64,000 nucleotides of DNA from Janthinobacterium sp. 67 (GTDB taxonomy: Bacteria; Pseudomonadota; Gammaproteobacteria; Burkholderiales; Burkholderiaceae_D): NCBI RefSeq assembly GCF_002797895.1, contig NZ_PGES01000001.1, positions 868,001-932,000 on the forward strand, given 5' to 3'. The notes under the pieces were generated by a model. It was given only the letters and a program-made list of their open reading frames with translations, did no database searches and was not told the DNA's origin. Shown here piece after piece: positions 301 through 35,458 of the stretch (its first letter is position 1; every line of letters begins with the position of its first letter). The position numbers were made by a program, and so were the translations under genes.

Positions 301-2220
301 CTAGGCATCCATGCGCGCCGCGCCCGTGCCTTGCCGCCGGTCCAGGAACAGGCTGTTGCCGTGGATTTTCTTTGCCTGCTTCTTTGCTTCGGCCGCCTGC
401 GTGGCGATCTGGTGGTGCGTGTAGTACTGGTGCGCCTCGACCTTGATGACGCCCAGCGACAAGCTGATCAACGAGTAAAACACTTTCTTGCCTTGCCGGT
501 CTTCGCTGATGTAGCCGCCCCGTTCGCAGTCGCCCGTGCTGTAGTAGGCGAGGATGGCGGCCGCGAAGTCGTCCAGCATGGCCTGGCAGCGCGTTTCCCA
601 GTCTTCGCTCTGGAACAGAATCATGAAATCGTCGCCGCCGATGTGGCCGATGAAGTCGCGGTTCGGGTCGCAATGGCTGCTGAGGATTTCTCCCGTCAGC
701 TGGATTACGTCGTCGCCCTTGCGGTAGCCGTACACATCGTTGAAGGGCTTGAAGTGGTCGAGGTCGCAATAGCAGACCCAGAAGCGGCTGCCGCTGTGCA
801 ATAAGCGGTCGATATGTTCGTTGATGGGCACGTTGCCGGGCAATTGTGTCAGCGGGTTGGCGTAGCGGGCCGCGTTGATCTGCATCTGCGTGATTTCGCG
901 CATCAGGTCGTGGCCCGTGCCCATGCCCAGGTAACGGCCGTGCTCGGTGATGATGAAGCCGTTGAACAGGTGGTGGGCATCGGATTGCACCATCGTGTAG
1001 CTGAGTTCCTGCAAGCTCGTCTCGTGGTCGGCAATCAGGGGCGTGGCATCCATGAACAGGCTGCATGATTTCCTACCATACAGTTCGCGCTGGTAAGGGC
1101 GGGCGAAGTGGTCGATCATGTCGAAGCGGCTGATCAGGCCCAGCGGCACGCCGTCGTCGACGACGGGAATGATCATCAGCTTCGGTTCCTTCAGGAAGAT
1201 ATCGTACACCTCGTTATTGTTGAGCTGCGGCGACACGGCCGCCACCTTGTGCAGCAGCTTGCGGATGCTGGCGCCATTTTTTTCCAGGCTGCTGCGCTGC
1301 GGATACACGGCCACGCCATTGCGCCCCAGCGCCTGCACCACTTCGGCCGGCAGGGCGCGCGCCGGCACGGCGTTGGGCCGGCCCAAATGATAGCCTTGCC
1401 CGAACGCCACGCCCAGGTCGCGCAAGACCAGCAATTCCGTCTGCGCCTCGATGCCTTCGGCGATGACCAGGGTGCCCGATTTCTCCGCGATTTCCTGGAT
1501 CGAGCGCACGAACTGCAGTTTCACGGGATCGTTGTTGATGCCCTGGATGAAATGCATGTCGATCTTCACGTATTCCGGGCGCAGTTCCGACCACAGGCGC
1601 AGGCTGGAAAAACCTTCACCGAGGTCGTCAATGGCGATCTGGAAACCCATGTTACGGCAATGCAGCACCGCCTCGCGCATCAGCTCGTAATCGTAGGTGG
1701 GCTGGTTTTCCGTCAGCTCGATGATGACACGGTCCGGATTGATGCCGATGTGCTCGATGTATTCCAGGGTTTCGCCATGGCGGGCATTGCGCAGCAGCAG
1801 GCATTCGGGGCTGACGTTGAGAAACAGTTTTCCCGGCAACTGCAGTTCGGCGAAGCGTTCAAGCACCACTTGCCGGCACAGGTGTTCCACTTCCAGGGTC
1901 AGATCGTGCGCGCGCGCCACCTTGAACAGATTCATCGGCGCGTGCAGGGGGCTGTCGGACGGCCCCCGTATCAAGCCTTCGTAACCGATGATGTCGCCGC
2001 TGTGCATGTGGATGATGGGCTGGAACAGCGCGCTGAGCTTGCGGCCCGCGAGGATCTCGTGCAAGGCGTCCGTCCCTTCGATGGTCATGGGAAGCGATGG
2101 CGGTTTCAGGTAAGCCACGTTCGATGGCATCACGCCGGGCGGCGCGGCGGTGGTGGAAGGGAGGGCGAGAGTGTGCATAGGAGGCTGTGGCGGCACGGCC
2201 TCTGGACGGGCCATGAACAT
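301..2220 (-). CDS. EAL-CBS-GGDEF cyclic-di-GMP signalling protein
   Basis: A 639-residue cytosolic protein without membrane segments. The EAL phosphodiesterase domain spans about residues 55-300 and keeps the main motifs: YEGLIRGP (E81), FLNVSP, IELTEN, IDDLGEGFSS, KID and IAEGIEA, so it is probably an active c-di-GMP phosphodiesterase. A CBS pair follows (about 315-450), then a C-terminal GGDEF domain whose signature is GGDDF (528-532). The second acidic position is altered, so cyclase activity is doubtful and the domain may instead bind GTP or be inert. Several in-frame Met codons exist (2214, 2175, 2088) and none has a good Shine-Dalgarno, so the start is uncertain. It is divergent from the prolyl oligopeptidase gene across about 280 bp. 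Confidence 0.9.
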   Translation of the reverse strand: MFMARPEAVPPQPPMHTLALPSTTAAPPGVMPSNVAYLKPPSLPMTIEGTDALHEILAGRKLSALFQPIIHMHSGDIIGYEGLIRGPSDSPLHAPMNLFKVARAHDLTLEVEHLCRQVVLERFAELQLPGKLFLNVSPECLLLRNARHGETLEYIEHIGINPDRVIIELTENQPTYDYELMREAVLHCRNMGFQIAIDDLGEGFSSLRLWSELRPEYVKIDMHFIQGINNDPVKLQFVRSIQEIAEKSGTLVIAEGIEAQTELLVLRDLGVAFGQGYHLGRPNAVPARALPAEVVQALGRNGVAVYPQRSSLEKNGASIRKLLHKVAAVSPQLNNNEVYDIFLKEPKLMIIPVVDDGVPLGLISRFDMIDHFARPYQRELYGRKSCSLFMDATPLIADHETSLQELSYTMVQSDAHHLFNGFIITEHGRYLGMGTGHDLMREITQMQINAARYANPLTQLPGNVPINEHIDRLLHSGSRFWVCYCDLDHFKPFNDVYGYRKGDDVIQLTGEILSSHCDPNRDFIGHIGGDDFMILFQSEDWETRCQAMLDDFAAAILAYYSTGDCERGGYISEDRQGKKVFYSLISLSLGVIKVEAHQYYTHHQIATQAAEAKKQAKKIHGNSLFLDRRQGTGAARMDA

Positions 2221-2499
2221 GTTGCCGATAGTAAAGAAGATTTATGACAGCTTGATGAAACGACTTTGCTTTTGATAATGTTTCTTGTATGAACGTCAGC
2301 TTGTCGATTTCGCGGAAAGCGAGATTTATCATGGCGATCCATGTGAATTTGCCAAACAAAAGACGGCAAATTCCTCAGATAACTGTGCTTTAAAAGTGGC
2401 AATCCGCGCTATGATTTCTCTTGGCGAAAGTCAACATGGGCAGCCGCGGCGTATGCCTGGCCTGCTTTCCTCGACATCCAACAATGAGACAAACAACCC
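2221..2499. promoter_or_regulatory. Divergent intergenic region, EAL gene / prolyl oligopeptidase
   Basis: This 279-bp region separates two divergent genes and is more AT-rich than its surroundings, especially at 2225-2400. It must carry promoters for both genes, but I could not pick out a convincing -35/-10 pair. I see no gene in it. Confidence 0.4.
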
Positions 2500-4695
<2,196 letters not shown>

Positions 4696-25625: not shown

Positions 25626-26789
25626 TTGTTTGCCCTGAAAACCCTGCGCCTCGAGACCGGCGCATCCGCACTTCCCGCCCTGCGGCTGATCGCCGCCGCG
25701 GCCCTCGCGCTGACCCTGGCCGCCTGTTCCAAGCCTGCCGTCAAAGTGGAAGACGTGCGCCCCGTGCGCGCCATCGTGTTGTCTAGCAGTAATGTTGACG
25801 TCAGTGCCGAGCTGTCGGGCGAAGTCGTGCCCCGCGTCGTGTCGCAGCTGGGTTTCCGCGTGGGCGGCAAGATCGTCGCGCGCAAGGTCGACGTGGGCGC
25901 CACCGTCAAGAAGGGGCAGGTGCTGATGCAGCTCGACCCCGTCGACTTGCAGCTATCGCAGGCGCAAGCCAAGGCTAGTCTGGTGAGTTCGGAGACCAGC
26001 CGCGACCTGGCGCGCGCGGAATTGAAGCGCTACCAGGATTTGCGCGAGAAAAATTTCGTCAGCCAGGCCGTGCTCGATGGCAAGGACGCCACCTACAAGG
26101 CGGCGCAGGCGAACGTGGAAGCGGCCCAGGCCCTGTACCGGGGCCAGGCGAACCAGTCCGGCTACGCCAGCCTGCTGGCCGACGTCGATGGCGTCGTCAC
26201 GCGCATCGAGGCTGAAGTGGGGCAGGTGGTGGCGCCCGGCGCGCCCGTCGTGCAAGTGGCCAGGAGCGGCGAAAAGGAAGTCGTGATCGGCATTCCCGAA
26301 GACAAGGTCGAGACCTTGCGCGGCGTCAAGGATGTGGTCGTGCGCCTGTGGGCCGACCCGAAGCAGGGCTTGCCCGGCAAGATACGCGAGGTGTCGCCCG
26401 TGGCCGATGCCGCCACGCGCACCTATATCGCCAAGGTCAGCATCCCGGACGCGCCGCACGTGCGCCTGGGCATGACGGCCGTGGTGCAGTTCGCCTCGCA
26501 AACGGCCACGCCGCAGATCAAGGTGCCATTGACGGCCCTGTTCAATGAAAAATCGCAAAGTTCCGTGTGGGTGGTGGAAAACGGCGCCGTGAAGCTCGTG
26601 CCCGTGACGGTGGGCGGCGTGGCGGGCAATGAGTTGCTGCTGGCCTCTGGCGTGAAAGCGGGGCAGACGGTGGTCACGGCCGGCGTCAACCTGCTCAAGC
26701 CGGGCCAGAAAGTGACCATCCTCGGCGCTGAACTGGCCAGCAAGCCCGATGTGGCCGCTGCCGCCGTTACCGTGGGTGCGGCCAAATGA
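25626..26789 (+). CDS. RND efflux periplasmic adaptor (MFP) lipoprotein
   Basis: A 387-residue membrane fusion protein. The signal peptide ends in a lipobox (LTLAAC), so the mature protein is a lipoprotein on the periplasmic side of the inner membrane. The order is lipoyl half (ELSGEVVPR...VGGKIVARKVDVGATVKKGQVLMQLD), coiled-coil hairpin (about 110-170), second lipoyl half, beta-barrel and membrane-proximal domain. TTG at 25626 is the likely start, with AAGGA 8 nt upstream. It overlaps the pump gene by 4 nt (ATGA). Confidence 0.93.
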   Translation: MFALKTLRLETGASALPALRLIAAAALALTLAACSKPAVKVEDVRPVRAIVLSSSNVDVSAELSGEVVPRVVSQLGFRVGGKIVARKVDVGATVKKGQVLMQLDPVDLQLSQAQAKASLVSSETSRDLARAELKRYQDLREKNFVSQAVLDGKDATYKAAQANVEAAQALYRGQANQSGYASLLADVDGVVTRIEAEVGQVVAPGAPVVQVARSGEKEVVIGIPEDKVETLRGVKDVVVRLWADPKQGLPGKIREVSPVADAATRTYIAKVSIPDAPHVRLGMTAVVQFASQTATPQIKVPLTALFNEKSQSSVWVVENGAVKLVPVTVGGVAGNELLLASGVKAGQTVVTAGVNLLKPGQKVTILGAELASKPDVAAAAVTVGAAK

Positions 26790-29700
26790 AGGGCGGCTTC
26801 AATCTGTCGCGCTGGGCCCTTGAGCACATCCCGCTGACGCGCTACCTGATGGCCGTGCTGCTGATCGGCGGCATGCTCAGCTACGCCAACCTAGGCCAGG
26901 ATGAAGATCCCCCGTTCACTTTCCGCGCCATGGTCTTGCAAGCGTACTGGCCCGGCGCCACGGCCCTGCAGATGGCCGAGCAGGTGACGGACAAGCTGGA
27001 AAAGAAACTGCAGGAAACGCCGTACATCGACGAGATCACCAGCTATTCGAAGCCGGGCGAAACCCTGATCCTGCTGGAGCTGCGCGAATCGGCGCCGCCC
27101 AAGGAAACAGCGGCCGCCTGGTACCAGGTGCGCAAGAAGATCGGCGACATCAAGGGCACTTTGCCGTCCGGCGTCGTGGGACCGTTCTTCAACGACGAGT
27201 TCGGCGACACGTACGGTTCCATCTTCGCCCTGTCCGCCGACGGTTTTACGTACGCGGAAATGAAGGATTACGCGGACAAGGTGCGCCAGGAACTGCTGGC
27301 CGTGGGACAGGTATCGAAAGTGGAACTGTTCGGCGTGCAAGATGAAAAGATCAATATCATCTTTTCGCACAAGAAATTTGCCCAGCTGGGCATTCCATTC
27401 GACGCCATCGTGCAGCAATTGTCCGAGCAAAACAGCATCAACGCCACGGGCGTGTTGGTGACGCCAACCGATAATCTGCAAGTGCGGGTGACGGGCGCCA
27501 TGGTCACCGTCAAGGACCTGGAAAACCTGGAACTGCGCGCCAACGGCACCACTTTCCGCCTCGGCGACTTTGCCACCGTGAAACGCGAATTCATCGATCC
27601 GCCAAAGGACAAGATGCGTTTCAACGGCAAGGAAGTGATCGGCCTGGGCGTATCGATGGAAAAGGGCGGCAACATCATCGACATGGGCAAGGCCTTGCAG
27701 GCCACCGTCACGCGCATGAAGCGCGAATTGCCGGTCGGCATAGAATTGCAGCGCGTGTCGAACCAGCCGGAAGCCGTGTCCGCTTCCGTGGGCGAATTCG
27801 TGCATACCCTGATCGAAGCCATTCTGATCGTGCTGGCCGTCAGCTTCGTCGCGCTGGGCTTGCACACGAAGCCGCTGCGCATCGACGTTCGGCCGGGCCT
27901 GGTGGTGGCGCTGACCATCCCGCTGGTGCTGGCCGTTACCTTCCTGTTCATGCGCCTGCTCGACATCGACTTGCACAAGATTTCCCTGGGTGCCCTGATC
28001 ATCGCGCTGGGCTTGCTGGTCGACGACGCCATCATCGCCGTCGAGATGATGGTGCGCAAGATGGAAGAGGGCATGTCGCGCTTCGACGCGGCCACGTTCG
28101 CCTACACGTCGACGGCCATGCCCATGCTGACGGGTACCCTGATCACGGTGGCGGGCTTCCTGCCCATCGGCCTGGCCAAGTCGGCCGCCGGCGAATACAC
28201 GTTCTCGCTGTTCTCCGTCAATGCGCTGGCCCTGATCATTTCGTGGGTGGTCGCCGTCGTTTTCACGCCCTACATCGGCTACATCTTGCTGAAAGTGAAA
28301 CCGCACGCGCATAACGACCATGAATTGTTCGATACGCCGAACTTCCGCCGCTTCCGCCGCGCCGTCACCTGGTGCGTGGAATGGCGCAAGACCACGATCG
28401 CCGCCACCCTGGCCATCTTTGCGCTGGGGATTTACGGCTTTAACTTTATCGAAAAGCAATTCTTTCCCGATTCCAGCCGTCCGGAACTGATGGTGGAACT
28501 GTGGTCGCCCGAAGGCACGACGTTTGCCGCAAATGAAAAGCAGGTCAAGAAATTCGAGGCGTTCGTCAGCAAGCTCGACGGCGTGGAAAGCGTGACCAGC
28601 TACGTGGGCACGGGCAGTCCCCGTTTCTATTTGCCGCTGGACCAGATTTTCCCGCAGACCAATGTGTCGCAAGTGGTGGTCTTGCCGAAGAGCCTGGCTG
28701 AACGCGAACGCTTGCGCCAGCAAATCGTCGATGTCTTCAAGAAGGATTTCCCGGAAGTGCGGGGCCGGGTCAAGCTGTTGCCGAATGGACCGCCGGTGCC
28801 GTATCCCGTGCAATTTCGCGTCATGGGGCCGGAAGTGGCTGGCGTGCGGGCCATCGCCGACCAGGTCAAGGACGTCATGCGCGCCAATCCGAACACGCTG
28901 GGCGTGAACGACAACTGGAATGAATCGGTGAAAGTACTGCGCCTGGACCTGGACCAGGACAAGATGCGCGCGCTGGGTGTCACCTCGAAAACGGTGATGC
29001 AGGCGGCCAATACGATTCTGTCGGGCACGGTCATCGGCCAGTTCCGCGAAGACAACAAGCTGATCGACATCCAGGTGCGCCAGCCGTTGGAAGAACGGGC
29101 GACGATTTCCGTGTTGAATGACACGAATATCCCGACGGCAACGGGCAAGTCCGTGCCGATCTCGCAGCTGGCCCGCGCGCATTTCGTGTGGGAGCCCGGT
29201 GTCGTCTGGCGCGACAAGCGCGAATGGGCCATCACCGTGCAGTCGGACGTGATCGATGGCATCCAGGGTGCCACCGTGTCGACGCAACTGGCGCCGCAGC
29301 TGGACGCCTTGCGCGCCAAGTTGCCGGCCGGCTACCGCATCGTCGTGAAAGGCGTGGCGGCCGACAGCGGCGAGGCGGAAGCGTCGATCTCGGCCAATTT
29401 GCCGCTGGCCATCTTCATCATCTTCACCTTGCTGATGCTGCAGCTGCACAGTTTTTCCCGTGCACTGCTCGTTTTCCTGACGGGGCCGCTGGGCGTGGCG
29501 GGTGCCGCCTTTGCCTTGCTGGCGCTGGGCCGGCCACTGGGTTTCGTGGCCAACCTGGGCATCATCGCGCTGTTCGGCATGATCATCCGCAACTCGGTGA
29601 TCCTCGTCGACCAGATCGAGCAAGACATCAATGACGGTTCGGCGCCCTGGGACGCCATCATCGACTCGGCCGTGCGCCGCTGCCGTCCCATCGTGCTGAC

Positions 29701-29884
29701 GGCTGCTGCCGCCGCGCTGGCCATGATCCCCTTGTCGCGTTCCGTGTTCTGGGGACCGATGGCCGTGGCCATCATGGGCGGCCTGATCCTGGCGACGGCC
29801 TTGACCTTGCTGTTCCTGCCGGCCTTGTATGCGGCCTGGTTCCGGGTCAAGAGGCCGGAGCCGGTGACCGCAAAAGAAGGCTAG
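26786..29884 (+). CDS. RND-family efflux pump (HAE1-like permease)
   Basis: A 1032-residue inner-membrane proton-driven exporter. The typical RND plan is clear: a first helix near 18-35, a large periplasmic porter domain, helices 2-6 (about 340-555) with the proton-relay motif LGLLVDDAIIAVE, a second porter domain, and helices 8-12 at the C-terminus. The N-terminal LGQDEDPPFTFRAMVLQAYWPGA is characteristic of a subgroup of HAE1 pumps for drugs or solvents. No outer-membrane channel gene follows, so a shared TolC-type channel is likely. Substrate unknown. Confidence 0.94.
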   Translation: MKGGFNLSRWALEHIPLTRYLMAVLLIGGMLSYANLGQDEDPPFTFRAMVLQAYWPGATALQMAEQVTDKLEKKLQETPYIDEITSYSKPGETLILLELRESAPPKETAAAWYQVRKKIGDIKGTLPSGVVGPFFNDEFGDTYGSIFALSADGFTYAEMKDYADKVRQELLAVGQVSKVELFGVQDEKINIIFSHKKFAQLGIPFDAIVQQLSEQNSINATGVLVTPTDNLQVRVTGAMVTVKDLENLELRANGTTFRLGDFATVKREFIDPPKDKMRFNGKEVIGLGVSMEKGGNIIDMGKALQATVTRMKRELPVGIELQRVSNQPEAVSASVGEFVHTLIEAILIVLAVSFVALGLHTKPLRIDVRPGLVVALTIPLVLAVTFLFMRLLDIDLHKISLGALIIALGLLVDDAIIAVEMMVRKMEEGMSRFDAATFAYTSTAMPMLTGTLITVAGFLPIGLAKSAAGEYTFSLFSVNALALIISWVVAVVFTPYIGYILLKVKPHAHNDHELFDTPNFRRFRRAVTWCVEWRKTTIAATLAIFALGIYGFNFIEKQFFPDSSRPELMVELWSPEGTTFAANEKQVKKFEAFVSKLDGVESVTSYVGTGSPRFYLPLDQIFPQTNVSQVVVLPKSLAERERLRQQIVDVFKKDFPEVRGRVKLLPNGPPVPYPVQFRVMGPEVAGVRAIADQVKDVMRANPNTLGVNDNWNESVKVLRLDLDQDKMRALGVTSKTVMQAANTILSGTVIGQFREDNKLIDIQVRQPLEERATISVLNDTNIPTATGKSVPISQLARAHFVWEPGVVWRDKREWAITVQSDVIDGIQGATVSTQLAPQLDALRAKLPAGYRIVVKGVAADSGEAEASISANLPLAIFIIFTLLMLQLHSFSRALLVFLTGPLGVAGAAFALLALGRPLGFVANLGIIALFGMIIRNSVILVDQIEQDINDGSAPWDAIIDSAVRRCRPIVLTAAAAALAMIPLSRSVFWGPMAVAIMGGLILATALTLLFLPALYAAWFRVKRPEPVTAKEG

Positions 29885-30047: not shown

Positions 30048-30130
30048 GCGGATGTGGTGGAATTGGTAGACACGCTGGTCTTAGAAGCCAGTGCTTCGGC
30101 TTGGGAGTTCGAGTCTCCCCATCCGCACCA
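30048..30130 (+). tRNA. tRNA-Leu (anticodon TAG)
   Basis: A complete class II tRNA. Acceptor arms GCGGATG and CATCCGC pair; the anticodon loop CTTAGAA gives TAG; a variable arm and a T-loop (GTTCGAGTC) are present. The CCA end is encoded (30128-30130). Confidence 0.96.
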
Positions 30131-30189: not shown

Positions 30190-31161
30190 TTAGCCGAGTG
30201 CGCCCAGTGCGCCCAGTTGCCGGCTCGACTGCTGCACCATCTGTGCAATCAGTGTCTGCGCCTGCGGGTAGCCGCTTCTTTCCATCAAATTATCATCTTC
30301 AGCCAACGGCCACAGCGCCTGCAAGACGCGTTGCCGTGCCTGCGGCCAGTTGTGTTCCTGCTCCTGTGCTGCTGGCGGCAGTTCCCTGTCCAGCATGTGC
30401 AGGGCCTCGCGCGTCTGCGCCAGCTCTCGCTCTGCCTGCGCGGCCAGCGTATCGCTGCGGGGCGGTGGCTGCTGCGCCAGATAAGTGTCGAGCTTGCGGC
30501 TCTGGCGCTCGTACAGGTCGAGCAGCAAATGCACGGTGGCGCCGCCTGGCCGCCGTCGCGTGTCGAGTGCGTTGAGCACATCGAGCAGCCAGTCCGTCAT
30601 CTGCCGCCCGGCCAGTCCCAGTTCCGGCCAGGCCGTGCCGTGCAATTGCTCGCCCAGGTAGCGGGCACGGTCGATGGCGCGCCGGCTGCCGCTCATGTGC
30701 TGGCCGATGGGGCCGTACTGTGACGCGAGCGCCGCTTCCTGCCGCTCGGCCAGCAGGCACAGCAAGGCCAAGTGGACATACACATGAAAGGCGGCCAGGG
30801 TGCGGTGGGCATCCCAATAGTGATTGCCCTCAATATCAGGCGCATTCCACAGCGAGCAGACCCTGGCGCCATCCTCGCGCGCATAGTCGGGCGCCAGCAG
30901 GCTGTGGCCGTGGCGGAAATCGTACAGTTTCTGGTGCGGCGATTCGTGCAGCAAATGCTCGGCCAGCCACCAGGGATTGCCGATCAGTTCCTGGTTCAGG
31001 AGGACGCTGCCGTTGACGCGAAATTGCGAACTGGACGCCTTGCCGCGCCACGTGTCCAGCTTGGGAAACAGGGCGATCAATTGCACTTGAGAAAGCGCGC
31101 TGGCCGTCAAACGGGGCAGCAAGGTTTCCAGCAAGCCTAGCCCGCGGCGCGCCGTAGGCAC
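30190..31161 (-). CDS. HExxH-motif putative peptide-modifying enzyme
   Basis: A 323-residue soluble protein. The metal-binding motif is H72-E73-S74-P75-H76 in EHLLHESPHQKLYDF. About 45 residues later comes HYWDAHRTLAAFHVYVHLALL, with R120, H126 and H130. The spacing of HExxH, a tryptophan/arginine segment and a His-containing helix matches the family I know as 'HEXXH motif-containing putative peptide modification protein'; characterised relatives are iron/2-oxoglutarate peptide beta-hydroxylases rather than proteases. The C-terminal third is helical and glutamine-rich. GTG start at 31159-31161, with GAGGC upstream, is 7 nt after the stop of a 58-residue peptide gene. Catalytic type is inferred. 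Confidence 0.7.
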   Translation of the reverse strand: MPTARRGLGLLETLLPRLTASALSQVQLIALFPKLDTWRGKASSSQFRVNGSVLLNQELIGNPWWLAEHLLHESPHQKLYDFRHGHSLLAPDYAREDGARVCSLWNAPDIEGNHYWDAHRTLAAFHVYVHLALLCLLAERQEAALASQYGPIGQHMSGSRRAIDRARYLGEQLHGTAWPELGLAGRQMTDWLLDVLNALDTRRRPGGATVHLLLDLYERQSRKLDTYLAQQPPPRSDTLAAQAERELAQTREALHMLDRELPPAAQEQEHNWPQARQRVLQALWPLAEDDNLMERSGYPQAQTLIAQMVQQSSRQLGALGALG

Positions 31162-31168
31162 TGCCGCC

Positions 31169-31345
31169 TCAGGCGACGGTGGGGTGGTCGTGGTGGCCGT
31201 CGCCCTTCATGCGCAATTCCATTTCATCGACTTCCGTCTGGATTTTTTGCAGATCGTCGTCGCTGACGCCCTCGAGCAGGCGGCTGAGGACCATTTGCAG
31301 CTTGGCTTTGGCGTTGCTGGAACTGCCGGATGTGCTGTCACTCAT
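31169..31345 (-). CDS. 58-residue peptide, candidate substrate of the HExxH enzyme
   Basis: A small gene with a strong ribosome-binding site (GTGGAGA, about 9 nt from the ATG at 31343-31345). The product has a Ser/Gly-rich start (SDSTSGSSS), an amphipathic helix rich in Leu, Asp and Glu (about 12-47) and a short tail GDGHHDHPTVA. A helical leader with a compact His/Asp tail is the layout of many RiPP precursors. Its stop is 7 nt before the GTG of the HExxH gene, so the two are co-transcribed. No family recognised; precursor function is inference. Confidence 0.75.
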   Translation of the reverse strand: MSDSTSGSSSNAKAKLQMVLSRLLEGVSDDDLQKIQTEVDEMELRMKGDGHHDHPTVA

Positions 31346-31945
31346 GATGTTTTCTCCACTAAATTCACTTGGAGACGGAAGAAAAGGCTTAGGTTTGCCT
31401 GAAAAATGGCCAAATTGAGGTAAATCAAAGGTTTTTTGCCTGAAATCTTCGCTGTGAGCGCATTTCTTTGTTTCGGACGGAGCGCCAGTTCGCATATACT
31501 AATGAACGAAGCAGGCTGGAAAGCCTGTCTCTGGCGAAATAAAGAATGCCGGGGCAAGAGTAAAGACAGGGCACCCCCAGGCTGTGGCGACTCGTTCGCC
31601 GCCGCTGGTATCCTCTGTGGCCGGGCTGCAAAGCCAGCCACTTTCCCGAAGTCCTTTGTTATAATGCCACGCTTTACCGAATGATGGCCGGCCCTGCATA
31701 TACTTAGACGCATGGCTGGACGCTCGGAGCCCTGTCGCAGTACTGGAAGCGGCGGATTGTTTGGTGCCTGGTGCGGGTTTTTCCTCAGCCGGGTAGACCA
31801 GGTCCATCGTCCTGTTTCCCGTACTTTTACAGATGAATATGCGAGCGAGTGAAGCTGGACCCATGTCTTGCCGCCAGTGATGGCGCAAGGGGTCGGGTCT
31901 TCTTTTCTCGCACCAACAGTGTTTATTTTTTGGACGATTTTTTAC
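31346..31945. other. 600-bp divergent region upstream of tig
   Basis: A long gap between the peptide gene and trigger factor. A -10-like TATAAT is at 31660-31665, without a clear -35, and is a possible start of a roughly 270-nt tig leader. GC content drops near 31360-31500 and 31640-31670. Short frames here lack ribosome-binding sites and I do not believe them. It could hold a leader or small RNA, but nothing decisive is visible. Confidence 0.4.
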
Positions 31946-33362: not shown

Positions 33363-33989
33363 ATGACAGGTATGAACCGTAATCCGGCGCTGGACACAGA
33401 GATGCTCGGCCTGGTGCCGATGGTGGTGGAACAAAGCGGTCGCGGCGAGCGCTCGTATGATATTTACTCGCGCCTGCTGAAGGAACGCTTGATTTTCATG
33501 GTCGGCCCGGTCAATGACCAGATGGCCAACCTGGTTGTCGCCCAGCTGCTGTTCCTGGAAAGCGAAAATCCGGAAAAGGAAATCTCGCTCTACATCAACT
33601 CGCCAGGTGGTTCGGTTTCGGCCGGCATGGCCATCTACGACACCATGCAGTTCATCAAACCGGACGTCTCGACCCTGTGCACGGGCATGGCTGCCTCGAT
33701 GGGCGCTTTCCTGCTGGCCGCTGGCGCCAAGGGCAAGCGTTTCTCGCTGCCGAACTCGCGCATCATGATTCACCAGCCGTCCGGTGGTTCGCAAGGCATG
33801 GCGTCCGACATCGAGATCCAGGCAAAGGAAATCCTTTACCTGCGCACCCGCTTGAACGGCATCATGGCCGAGCGCACGGGCCAGTCGATCGAACAGATCG
33901 CCAAGGACACCGACCGCGACCGTTTCATGTCCGCCGACGAGGCCGTTGAGTATGGTTTGATCGACAAAGTGTTGACCAGCCGCGCTTGA
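33363..33989 (+). CDS. clpP: ATP-dependent Clp protease proteolytic subunit
   Basis: A 208-residue serine protease subunit that forms the double-heptamer barrel. The catalytic serine is S112 in GMAASMGAF and the histidine H137 in MIHQPSGG. The oxyanion loop SPGGSVSAG is present. AAGGA precedes the ATG. It works with ClpX encoded next. It has its own terminator at 34023-34060. Confidence 0.97.
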
Positions 33990-34022
33990 TGAGCCCCTAC
34001 CGGTATTGCTAAGTACGTAAGT

Positions 34023-34060
34023 AAACGCCCGGGCGATCAAACGTTCGGGCGTTTCGCTTT
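34023..34060 (+). terminator. Intrinsic terminator after clpP
   Basis: Arms AAACGCCCG (34023-34031) and CGGGCGTTT (34046-34054) are followed by a T-rich run. It implies that clpX is at least partly transcribed from its own promoter. Confidence 0.85.
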
Positions 34061-34189
34061 TATTTCGGGTAGCATGGAGCTTGTGCACGTTGTTGACTTG
34101 CGCCATGGGTAGCGGCCTTTCCGGGCAGCAACCATCATCCGGCTTGCGATTTTGCAATATTGTTAATGCAGTTCCAACCAAAATGCCTT

Positions 34190-35458
34190 ATGTCAGACAA
34201 AAAATCCTCTAGCGGCGAAAAATTACTGTATTGCTCGTTCTGCGGCAAAAGCCAGCACGAGGTGAAGAAACTCATCGCCGGCCCGTCCGTCTTCATTTGC
34301 GACGAGTGCATCGACCTGTGCAACGACATCATCCGTGATGAAACGTCGAGCATCGAGACGGTGACCGGTACCAAATCCGACCTGCCGACGCCGCAAGAAA
34401 TCGCCGCCTTGCTCGATCAGTACGTGATCGGCCAGCAGACTGCCAAGCGCATCCTGTCGGTGGCGGTGTACAACCATTACAAGCGCCTCAAGCACCTGGG
34501 CAAGAAAGACGACATCGAACTGGCCAAGAGCAACATCTTGCTGGTCGGTCCTACCGGCTCGGGCAAGACCCTGCTGGCACAGACCCTGGCGCGCATGCTC
34601 AACGTACCGTTCGTGATCGCCGACGCCACCACCCTGACCGAAGCCGGTTACGTGGGCGAGGACGTGGAAAACATCATCCAGAAGTTGCTGCAAAGCTGCA
34701 ACTACGACGTCGAGAAAGCCCAGCGCGGCATCGTCTACATCGATGAGATCGACAAGATTTCGCGCAAGTCCGACAATCCGTCCATCACGCGCGACGTGTC
34801 GGGCGAGGGCGTGCAGCAAGCCTTGCTGAAATTGATCGAAGGCACGATGGCTTCCGTGCCGCCACAAGGCGGCCGCAAGCACCCGAACCAGGATTTCGTG
34901 CAGATCGACACGACCAACATCATGTTCATCTGCGGCGGCGCCTTTGACGGCCTGTCGAAAGTGATCGCCAACCGTTCCGAGAAGAGCGGCATCGGCTTCT
35001 CGGCCACGGTGCGCAGCAAGTCGCAAAGCTCGGCCAGCGAACTGATGCTGCAAGCGGAACCGGAAGATCTGGTCAAGTTCGGTCTGATCCCGGAACTGGT
35101 GGGACGTCTGCCCGTCATCGCCACCCTGGCGGAGTTGACGGAAGAGGCGCTGATCCAGATCCTCGTCGAGCCGAAGAATGCGCTGATCAAGCAGTATTCG
35201 AAGTTGCTCGACATGGAAGGCGCGGAACTGGAGATTCGTCCGGCCGCCCTGCATGCGATCGCCAAGAAGGCGCTGGCGCGCAAGACCGGTGCCCGTGGCC
35301 TGCGTTCCATCCTGGAACATGCTTTGCTGGACGTGATGTACGAACTGCCGAGCGAACAAAATGTGGTGAAGGTCGTCATCGACGAAAATACCATCACCAG
35401 CGGCGCCAAACCTTTGTTGATTTATCAAGAGACTGCCAAGGCCTCCGGAGAAAATTGA
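34190..35458 (+). CDS. clpX: ATP-dependent Clp protease ATP-binding subunit
   Basis: A 422-residue AAA+ unfoldase. The N-terminal zinc-binding domain has CSFCGKS and CDECID. The Walker A motif is GPTGSGKT, Walker [11 protein letters not shown], and the ClpP-contact loop appears as IGFSA. The ATG at 34190 ([11 protein letters not shown]) is preferred over an upstream in-frame ATG at 34160. It feeds substrates to ClpP. Confidence 0.97.

Follow-up and report, generated by a model that had tools for sequence, protein, structure and literature searches.

A peptide and HExxH enzyme gene pair in Janthinobacterium: candidate minimal peptide-modification systems and a probably decayed copy in Janthinobacterium sp. 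67

The window analysed here is a 64,000-nt stretch of contig NZ_PGES01000001.1 of Janthinobacterium sp. 67, to whose positions all coordinates refer, and it contains a cassette of two genes, one encoding a putative precursor peptide and the other, located downstream, an enzyme with an HExxH motif. An earlier note on this DNA had described a 58-residue peptide followed 7 nt later by an HExxH protein with H72-E-S-P-H76, H126 and H130, and both genes and all named residues were indeed found at these places, the 7 nt separating the peptide stop codon from the GTG start codon of the enzyme gene. Its interpretation, a ribosomally synthesized and post-translationally modified peptide (RiPP) system in which the peptide tail is hydroxylated, held in part, as the gene pair is genuine, recurring and RiPP-like, whereas damage to this particular copy of the enzyme had been missed. 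The features of the cassette are the following:

31169..31345, minus strand: putative precursor peptide gene, 58 residues, MSDSTSGSSSNAKAKLQMVLSRLLEGVSDDDLQKIQTEVDEMELRMKGDGHHDHPTVA, with a purine-rich, ribosome-binding-site-like stretch upstream
31211..31315, minus strand: presumed leader, residues 11-45, motif L..L...LS.eEL..iQ.hvD.mE, from leave-one-out leader profiles
31172..31204, minus strand: His/Asp-rich tail GDGHHDHPTVA, presumed modified core, from comparison with close relatives
31138..31161, minus strand: deletion junction directly after the GTG, where 181 codons of the relative G001 are absent, from DNA alignment to G001, junction sequences and lengths
30190..31161, minus strand: HExxH enzyme, 323 residues, N-terminally truncated and of the alpha-ketoglutarate (aKG)-HExxH type, with a GTG start
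30934..30948, minus strand: HExxH motif, residues 72-76, HESPH, with Leu changed to Pro at residue 75, from alignment of relatives
30769..30795, minus strand: helix AAFHVYVHL, residues 123-131, with H126 and H130, from alignment of relatives

The peptide frame spans 31169-31495 (108 residues from its first ATG), and the 58-residue reading employs the ATG at 31345.

Of 40 Janthinobacterium genomes, 18 contained the enzyme and 17 of the 18, that of the window included, also contained the peptide, while none had the peptide alone; the odd genome (G022) contains an enzyme fragment on a 3.2-kb contig. In all 16 other genomes of the genus with more than such a fragment, a peptide of 56-97% identity is encoded directly upstream of the enzyme, and these loci follow one order, namely RND gene, tRNA-Leu, enzyme, peptide, tig, clpP and clpX. 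The tRNA gene is a conserved landmark of the site and lies outside the system:

30048..30130, plus strand: tRNA-Leu, bordering the cassette

In the window and the 16 relatives, the interval from tRNA-Leu to tig fits just the two genes, with no radical S-adenosylmethionine (SAM) gene adjacent. The corresponding site was read in 14 of the 22 genomes of the genus without an enzyme match, and in all 14 a spacer of approximately 120-210 bp connects tRNA-Leu to the sequence preceding tig, neither enzyme nor peptide being matched there; the edge of the empty site precedes the peptide start by 40-50 bp in 13 of them and by about 75 bp in one. Peptide and enzyme are gained or lost as one unit. This patchy occurrence (17-18 of 40 genomes, and empty sites wherever inspected), together with a two-gene layout in which the peptide comes first, would also suit an accessory module, toxin-antitoxin-like or otherwise, whose acidic peptide restrains the enzyme, and damage to the enzyme beside an open peptide frame would fit such a module as well. 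We consider it very improbable, given that the conserved part of the peptide is a leader-like segment followed by an HxH/HHD-type tail, that an aldo/keto reductase has been added in four distant loci as expected of a tailoring pathway, and that the predicted fold of the enzyme is that of a peptide hydroxylase.

A scan of named bacterial genomes yielded 26 loci, ten in Janthinobacterium and 16 elsewhere, and in seven of the latter a profile identified a short related peptide directly upstream of the enzyme. The distant peptides had first been picked by eye, and the profile test, which leaves the peptide's own locus out and covers 4922 stop-to-stop frames, gave E values from 2e-6 to 1e-14 for those of Actinomadura, Paraburkholderia, Nocardia, Sphingomonadaceae, Beijerinckia, Streptosporangiaceae and Methylobacter, among which those of Nocardia and Methylobacter resemble each other and therefore lend one another support. 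A leave-one-out profile of the leader alone recovered the same seven of eight tested (E 2e-4 to 3e-10). At the Streptomyces olivoverticillatus locus (L054), which was outside the first distant-locus profile and was added later, a peptide with the tail DDHDHDHNIES was spotted by eye, and the leader profile lends it no support (E 64). Other His-rich peptides occur at L050 and L061; at the latter, a 99-residue open reading frame upstream of a divergent enzyme of 27% identity (L061:7589-7888) contains two near-identical units, DPLKLVGNARLxLHHHMAPAT, and is perhaps a two-core precursor. The survey for short neighbouring genes which the earlier note had suggested thus succeeded in 16 of 16 Janthinobacterium loci and, among the distant ones, in seven by profile and one by eye, with none seen at six; the absence of a peptide gene beside every homologue, by which its proposal would have fallen, did not occur.

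When a protein database was searched with the alignment of the peptides, 118 proteins were retrieved (E up to 1), and the Pfam entry is empty for each. An HxH/HHD-type motif follows the leader in 115 of the 118, a count biased towards such tails, as the profile included tail positions and approximately 32 of the proteins are near-copies of the Janthinobacterium peptide. The tail H[DH]HD[TS]xGGxGHHDHxxLxDLSWRL is present in 76 and a HHDHDHP type in 28, cysteine occurs in 8 of 118, and the three proteins without the motif are the frameshifted P0233 and P0236 and, with its tail replaced, P0160. The best Pfam match of the window peptide was DUF5388 at 13.8 bits (cut-off 26.1), and in NCBIfam this peptide and eight others stayed below the cut-off of every model. 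Two hallmarks of RiPP systems were accordingly found, that is a precursor conserved beside an enzyme gene, and a conserved leader combined with a variable core.

The sole NCBIfam match of the window enzyme is TIGR04267, the aKG-HExxH-type peptide beta-hydroxylase domain (E 2.5e-7; 30.9 bits, curated cut-off 40), against which six relatives score 30.7-42.0 bits, one of them above the cut-off. The 6.45-Mb, two-contig genome contains one match to the enzyme family, and no precomputed Pfam domain, radical SAM included, is recorded among the 120 homologues listed. A sequence search of the PDB with alignment A1 retrieved no HExxH enzyme, which left no sequence basis for placing the ligands of iron and alpha-ketoglutarate; H126 is invariant in alignment A2, and H130 is replaced by Gln in three of 15 relatives and is therefore unlikely to be an essential ligand. 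The predicted model of an intact relative shares its fold with ChlB (PDB 8s5f), a fusion of radical SAM and HExxH domains, and carries an extra C-terminal helical region of approximately 120 residues; in contrast to ChlB, the Janthinobacterium system has neither a radical SAM domain nor an evident cyclophane step. SjiH (PDB 22ob) has 409 residues and 12% identity, and no paper on it was found in the literature searched. That the intact enzyme is a metalloprotease which cleaves the peptide, and not an oxygenase, appears improbable to us: a clear place in a metalloprotease family, named by the earlier note as the result that would overturn its proposal, was not obtained, the window enzyme having no Pfam match at E up to 1, and a peptidase identity was rejected on this ground and because similarity to peptidase folds is weak, in lists from which the absence of a family does not exclude that family.

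Hydroxylation as the reaction is suggested by the characterised members ChlB, PflC/PosC, PesO and BipH. According to the accessible parts of the respective sources, ChlB oxidizes Asp and His and PflC/PosC oxidizes Gln, the leader being needed for oxidation (PMC12636437), PesO hydroxylates Pro (PMC13060819) and BipH carries out a hydroxylation (PMC12707348). PflC/PosC from Pseudomonas resemble the present enzymes in their aKG-HExxH class, in a nearby precursor gene and in a cluster in which the accessible text mentions no protease gene; by the same text, the targets are consecutive Gln residues and an ARMD tail, the leader is of the nitrile-hydratase type and the cluster adds an MNIO-nitroreductase, a GNAT protein and transporters (PMC12636437), whereas here a short LQ.hvD leader precedes a His/Asp tail and no further gene belongs to the Janthinobacterium cassette. 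The nitrilobacillin cluster encodes another aKG-HExxH enzyme with a RiPP precursor as its substrate, PesO, which differs, in the portion of the paper available, by its Pro target and by the presence of an MNIO and of an asparagine-synthetase-like enzyme in its cluster (PMC13060819). The class of HExxH oxygenases and its role in RiPP biosynthesis are already known; the intact pair is a variant of it and the window copy a decayed member. Neither the leader family nor the stand-alone pair was found in Pfam, NCBIfam or the literature searched, which covered few subscription papers, some sources in part, and is no proof of absence, and the same literature yielded nothing on Janthinobacterium RiPP precursors, on HExxH enzymes with beta-hydroxyhistidine or on histidine-rich hydroxyhistidine RiPPs.

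With moderate confidence, we interpret the intact pairs as minimal two-gene RiPP systems in which an HExxH oxygenase hydroxylates the His/Asp tail, and the window as a decayed copy of such a pair. The helical leader (LS.eEL..LQ.hvD.lE) would recruit the enzyme, a presumed iron- and alpha-ketoglutarate-dependent HExxH oxygenase acting while leader-bound, and one or more His or Asp residues of the tail would be hydroxylated, probably at the beta carbon. The hydroxylated tail would then probably bind a metal or a partner, either in the cell or following export by general machinery; the metal binding is guessed from the composition, with the copper-binding bufferins as an analogy, which, in the accessible part of the source, use Cys, not His (PMC12452194).

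One sign of decay in the window copy is the length of its enzyme. Among the 120 homologues listed, from candidates restricted to 0.55-1.75 times the query length, 107 are 500-535 residues long as compared to 323 for the window enzyme, which, in the 60 listed matches inspected, aligns to the full-length ones only from residue ~167-232 onward. In a DNA alignment to the nearest full-length relative, G001 (504 residues), the peptide gene and the GTG match, 181 codons are gone from the window, and the alignment resumes at RRGLGLLETLLPRL; the deletion is in frame, leaves the start codon at the position of the G001 GTG and removes about a third of the enzyme, including nearly half of the catalytic fold, such that a complete 8s5f-like HExxH oxygenase fold is not present. 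Junction sequences were obtained for six of 12 loci tried, the other six giving no pattern match, and the far side for two. A split enzyme with its N-terminal part encoded elsewhere was rejected, as a full-length query matched one genomic place, over query residues 179-507, and an assembly error was rejected because P0001 and P0018, from other sources, also have 323 residues and nearly the same first residues. P0001 (16 member sequences) is 97% identical to the window enzyme, with 11 differences, and shares HESPH; P0018, of 75% identity, has HESLH, and the deletion therefore probably preceded Leu75Pro. All 15 relatives compared have HE[SA]LH, and of the 27 rows in alignment A1 just two, the window and P0001, have Pro at this place; the zinc-protease pattern of PROSITE likewise does not permit Pro as the second x of HExxH. 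In the structure model of the window enzyme the HExxH helix is broken and lies in a low-confidence stretch, confidence dropping over residues 1-85, metal site included. Loss of 181 codons combined with Pro in the motif would have disabled the enzyme, which is most likely inactive, its peptide probably being left unmodified.

The window enzyme also differs at six columns that are invariant in the 15 relatives (H25Q, G36D, F54L, L75P, P147S and D197N), three of which (L75P, P147S and D197N) are shared by P0001. The same count is 0 or 1 in 14 of the 15 relatives and 26 in the distant outgroup G002. It is unlikely, in our view, that the short enzyme still functions as a streamlined variant whose C-terminal part acts on the peptide or performs a simpler job, e.g. 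binding: the lost part belongs to the fold common with ChlB, L75P sits between both motif histidines, model confidence collapses over the metal site, window-only changes at invariant columns outnumber those of the sister, and frameshifts affect P0233 and P0236, whose leaders are window-like, even if such a variant would agree with an in-frame deletion that retains the start codon, a 323-residue form recurring in other sequences, a ratio of amino-acid-changing to silent changes like that of the sister, and a peptide frame kept open. A number of observations nevertheless weigh against decay of the window copy or against the wider RiPP interpretation. The TIGR04267 match of the window enzyme lies under the cut-off, and no related peptide was seen upstream in six of the 16 distant loci (L055, L056, L058, L059, L060 and L062; enzymes of 29-36% identity). 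The truncated form is not a singleton, and one of its bearers, P0018, retains the Leu motif. The models are predictions, AlphaFold is no measure of stability, and no control model combining the truncation with Leu75 was made. The invariant-column count depends on the nearness of the closest neighbour in the set, a near neighbour lowering it, and the fair comparison is therefore with G001 alone, that is six versus one. Amino-acid-changing to silent changes number 14-17 to 21-25 on the window branch and 10-11 to 10-15 on that of G001, and these similar ratios argue against a general or long relaxation of selection. Finally, the window tail is two residues shorter than GDGHHDHDHPTVA of G001 and other close relatives, and as P0144, which represents another background, has the short tail too, the shortening is not necessarily damage and was not counted as evidence of decay.

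General relaxed selection was likewise rejected on these ratios, which are even higher for the pair G036/G014 (17:14, 15:13). The codon comparison comprised 15 relatives, with G039 (L014) left out because its degraded motif missed the search pattern. This locus (~1139-3020) is another degraded Janthinobacterium copy with an open frame, in which the peptide tail is replaced by RGDSHPAPA and the enzyme motifs are altered to FHAYVH and HQKLHDLR. P0032 (409 residues), a further enzyme resembling those of Janthinobacterium, has lost roughly 80-100 residues from its interior. P0233 and P0236 are 40-residue peptide forms; residues 1-34 of P0233 equal those of the window peptide, after which the frame shifts at a run of A, and these frameshifts may represent decay, phase variation or sequencing error.

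Aldo/keto reductase genes (PF00248) lie directly downstream of the HExxH gene at four distant loci (L047:9513-10736, L049:9500-10711, L052:9403-10779 and L057:9439-10191), and their products possess an N-terminal segment resembling the peptide leader. The Methylobacter reductase matches the leader profile with an E value of 1.8e-6, or 6.2e-5 when the peptide of its own locus is left out, and three of the four reductases outscore every shuffle that received a score (460-483 of 500); the score of the Beijerinckia reductase is reached by two of 413 scored shuffles. Of ten neighbouring proteins scanned at distant loci, one belongs to the radical SAM enzymes, a radical SAM/SPASM protein in a cyanobacterial genome (L056:10383-11570); its gene lies downstream of that of a divergent HExxH enzyme, at a distance of approximately 0.8 kb. 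More tentatively, the pairs could represent a RiPP class not named before and occurring in at least two phyla, in which a lone HExxH oxygenase, guided by the leader, hydroxylates His and Asp residues and so makes a Cys-poor, His/Asp metal-binding peptide, and in which, in some clusters, an aldo/keto reductase bears its own leader helix, the leader serving as a docking tag shared by peptide and enzyme.

HExxH oxygenases have been recognised only recently, and in the accessible parts of the literature searched their genes accompany those of other modifying enzymes, radical SAM and MNIO enzymes among them. A version with one enzyme, one peptide and a defined leader family would be the simplest setting in which to learn how the peptide is recognised and oxidized, and such pairs would also be a source of hydroxylated His/Asp peptides. 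The main value of the window is one of caution, as its copy is damaged and an intact relative is better suited for tests.

Beyond the 40 genomes of the genus, a family sample of 392 genomes contained the enzyme in 18, all of them Janthinobacterium (one of 44 genera), and one protein match, P0037, is named Oxalobacteraceae bacterium. In a class sample of 369 genomes, searched at E up to 1e-10, the window's own genome was the sole match; the Paraburkholderia locus (L048) is a member of the class outside the matches of that sample. The cassette of the window is flanked by an RND-pump-like gene (26786-29884) and by clpP/clpX-like genes (33363-35458), these and tig being named from their translations without a family search, and the statement of the earlier note that no transporter or protease is nearby is therefore incorrect as worded. 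Sequence of the RND and tig regions borders all 14 inspected cassette-free sites, and the flanking genes are therefore not members of the cassette.
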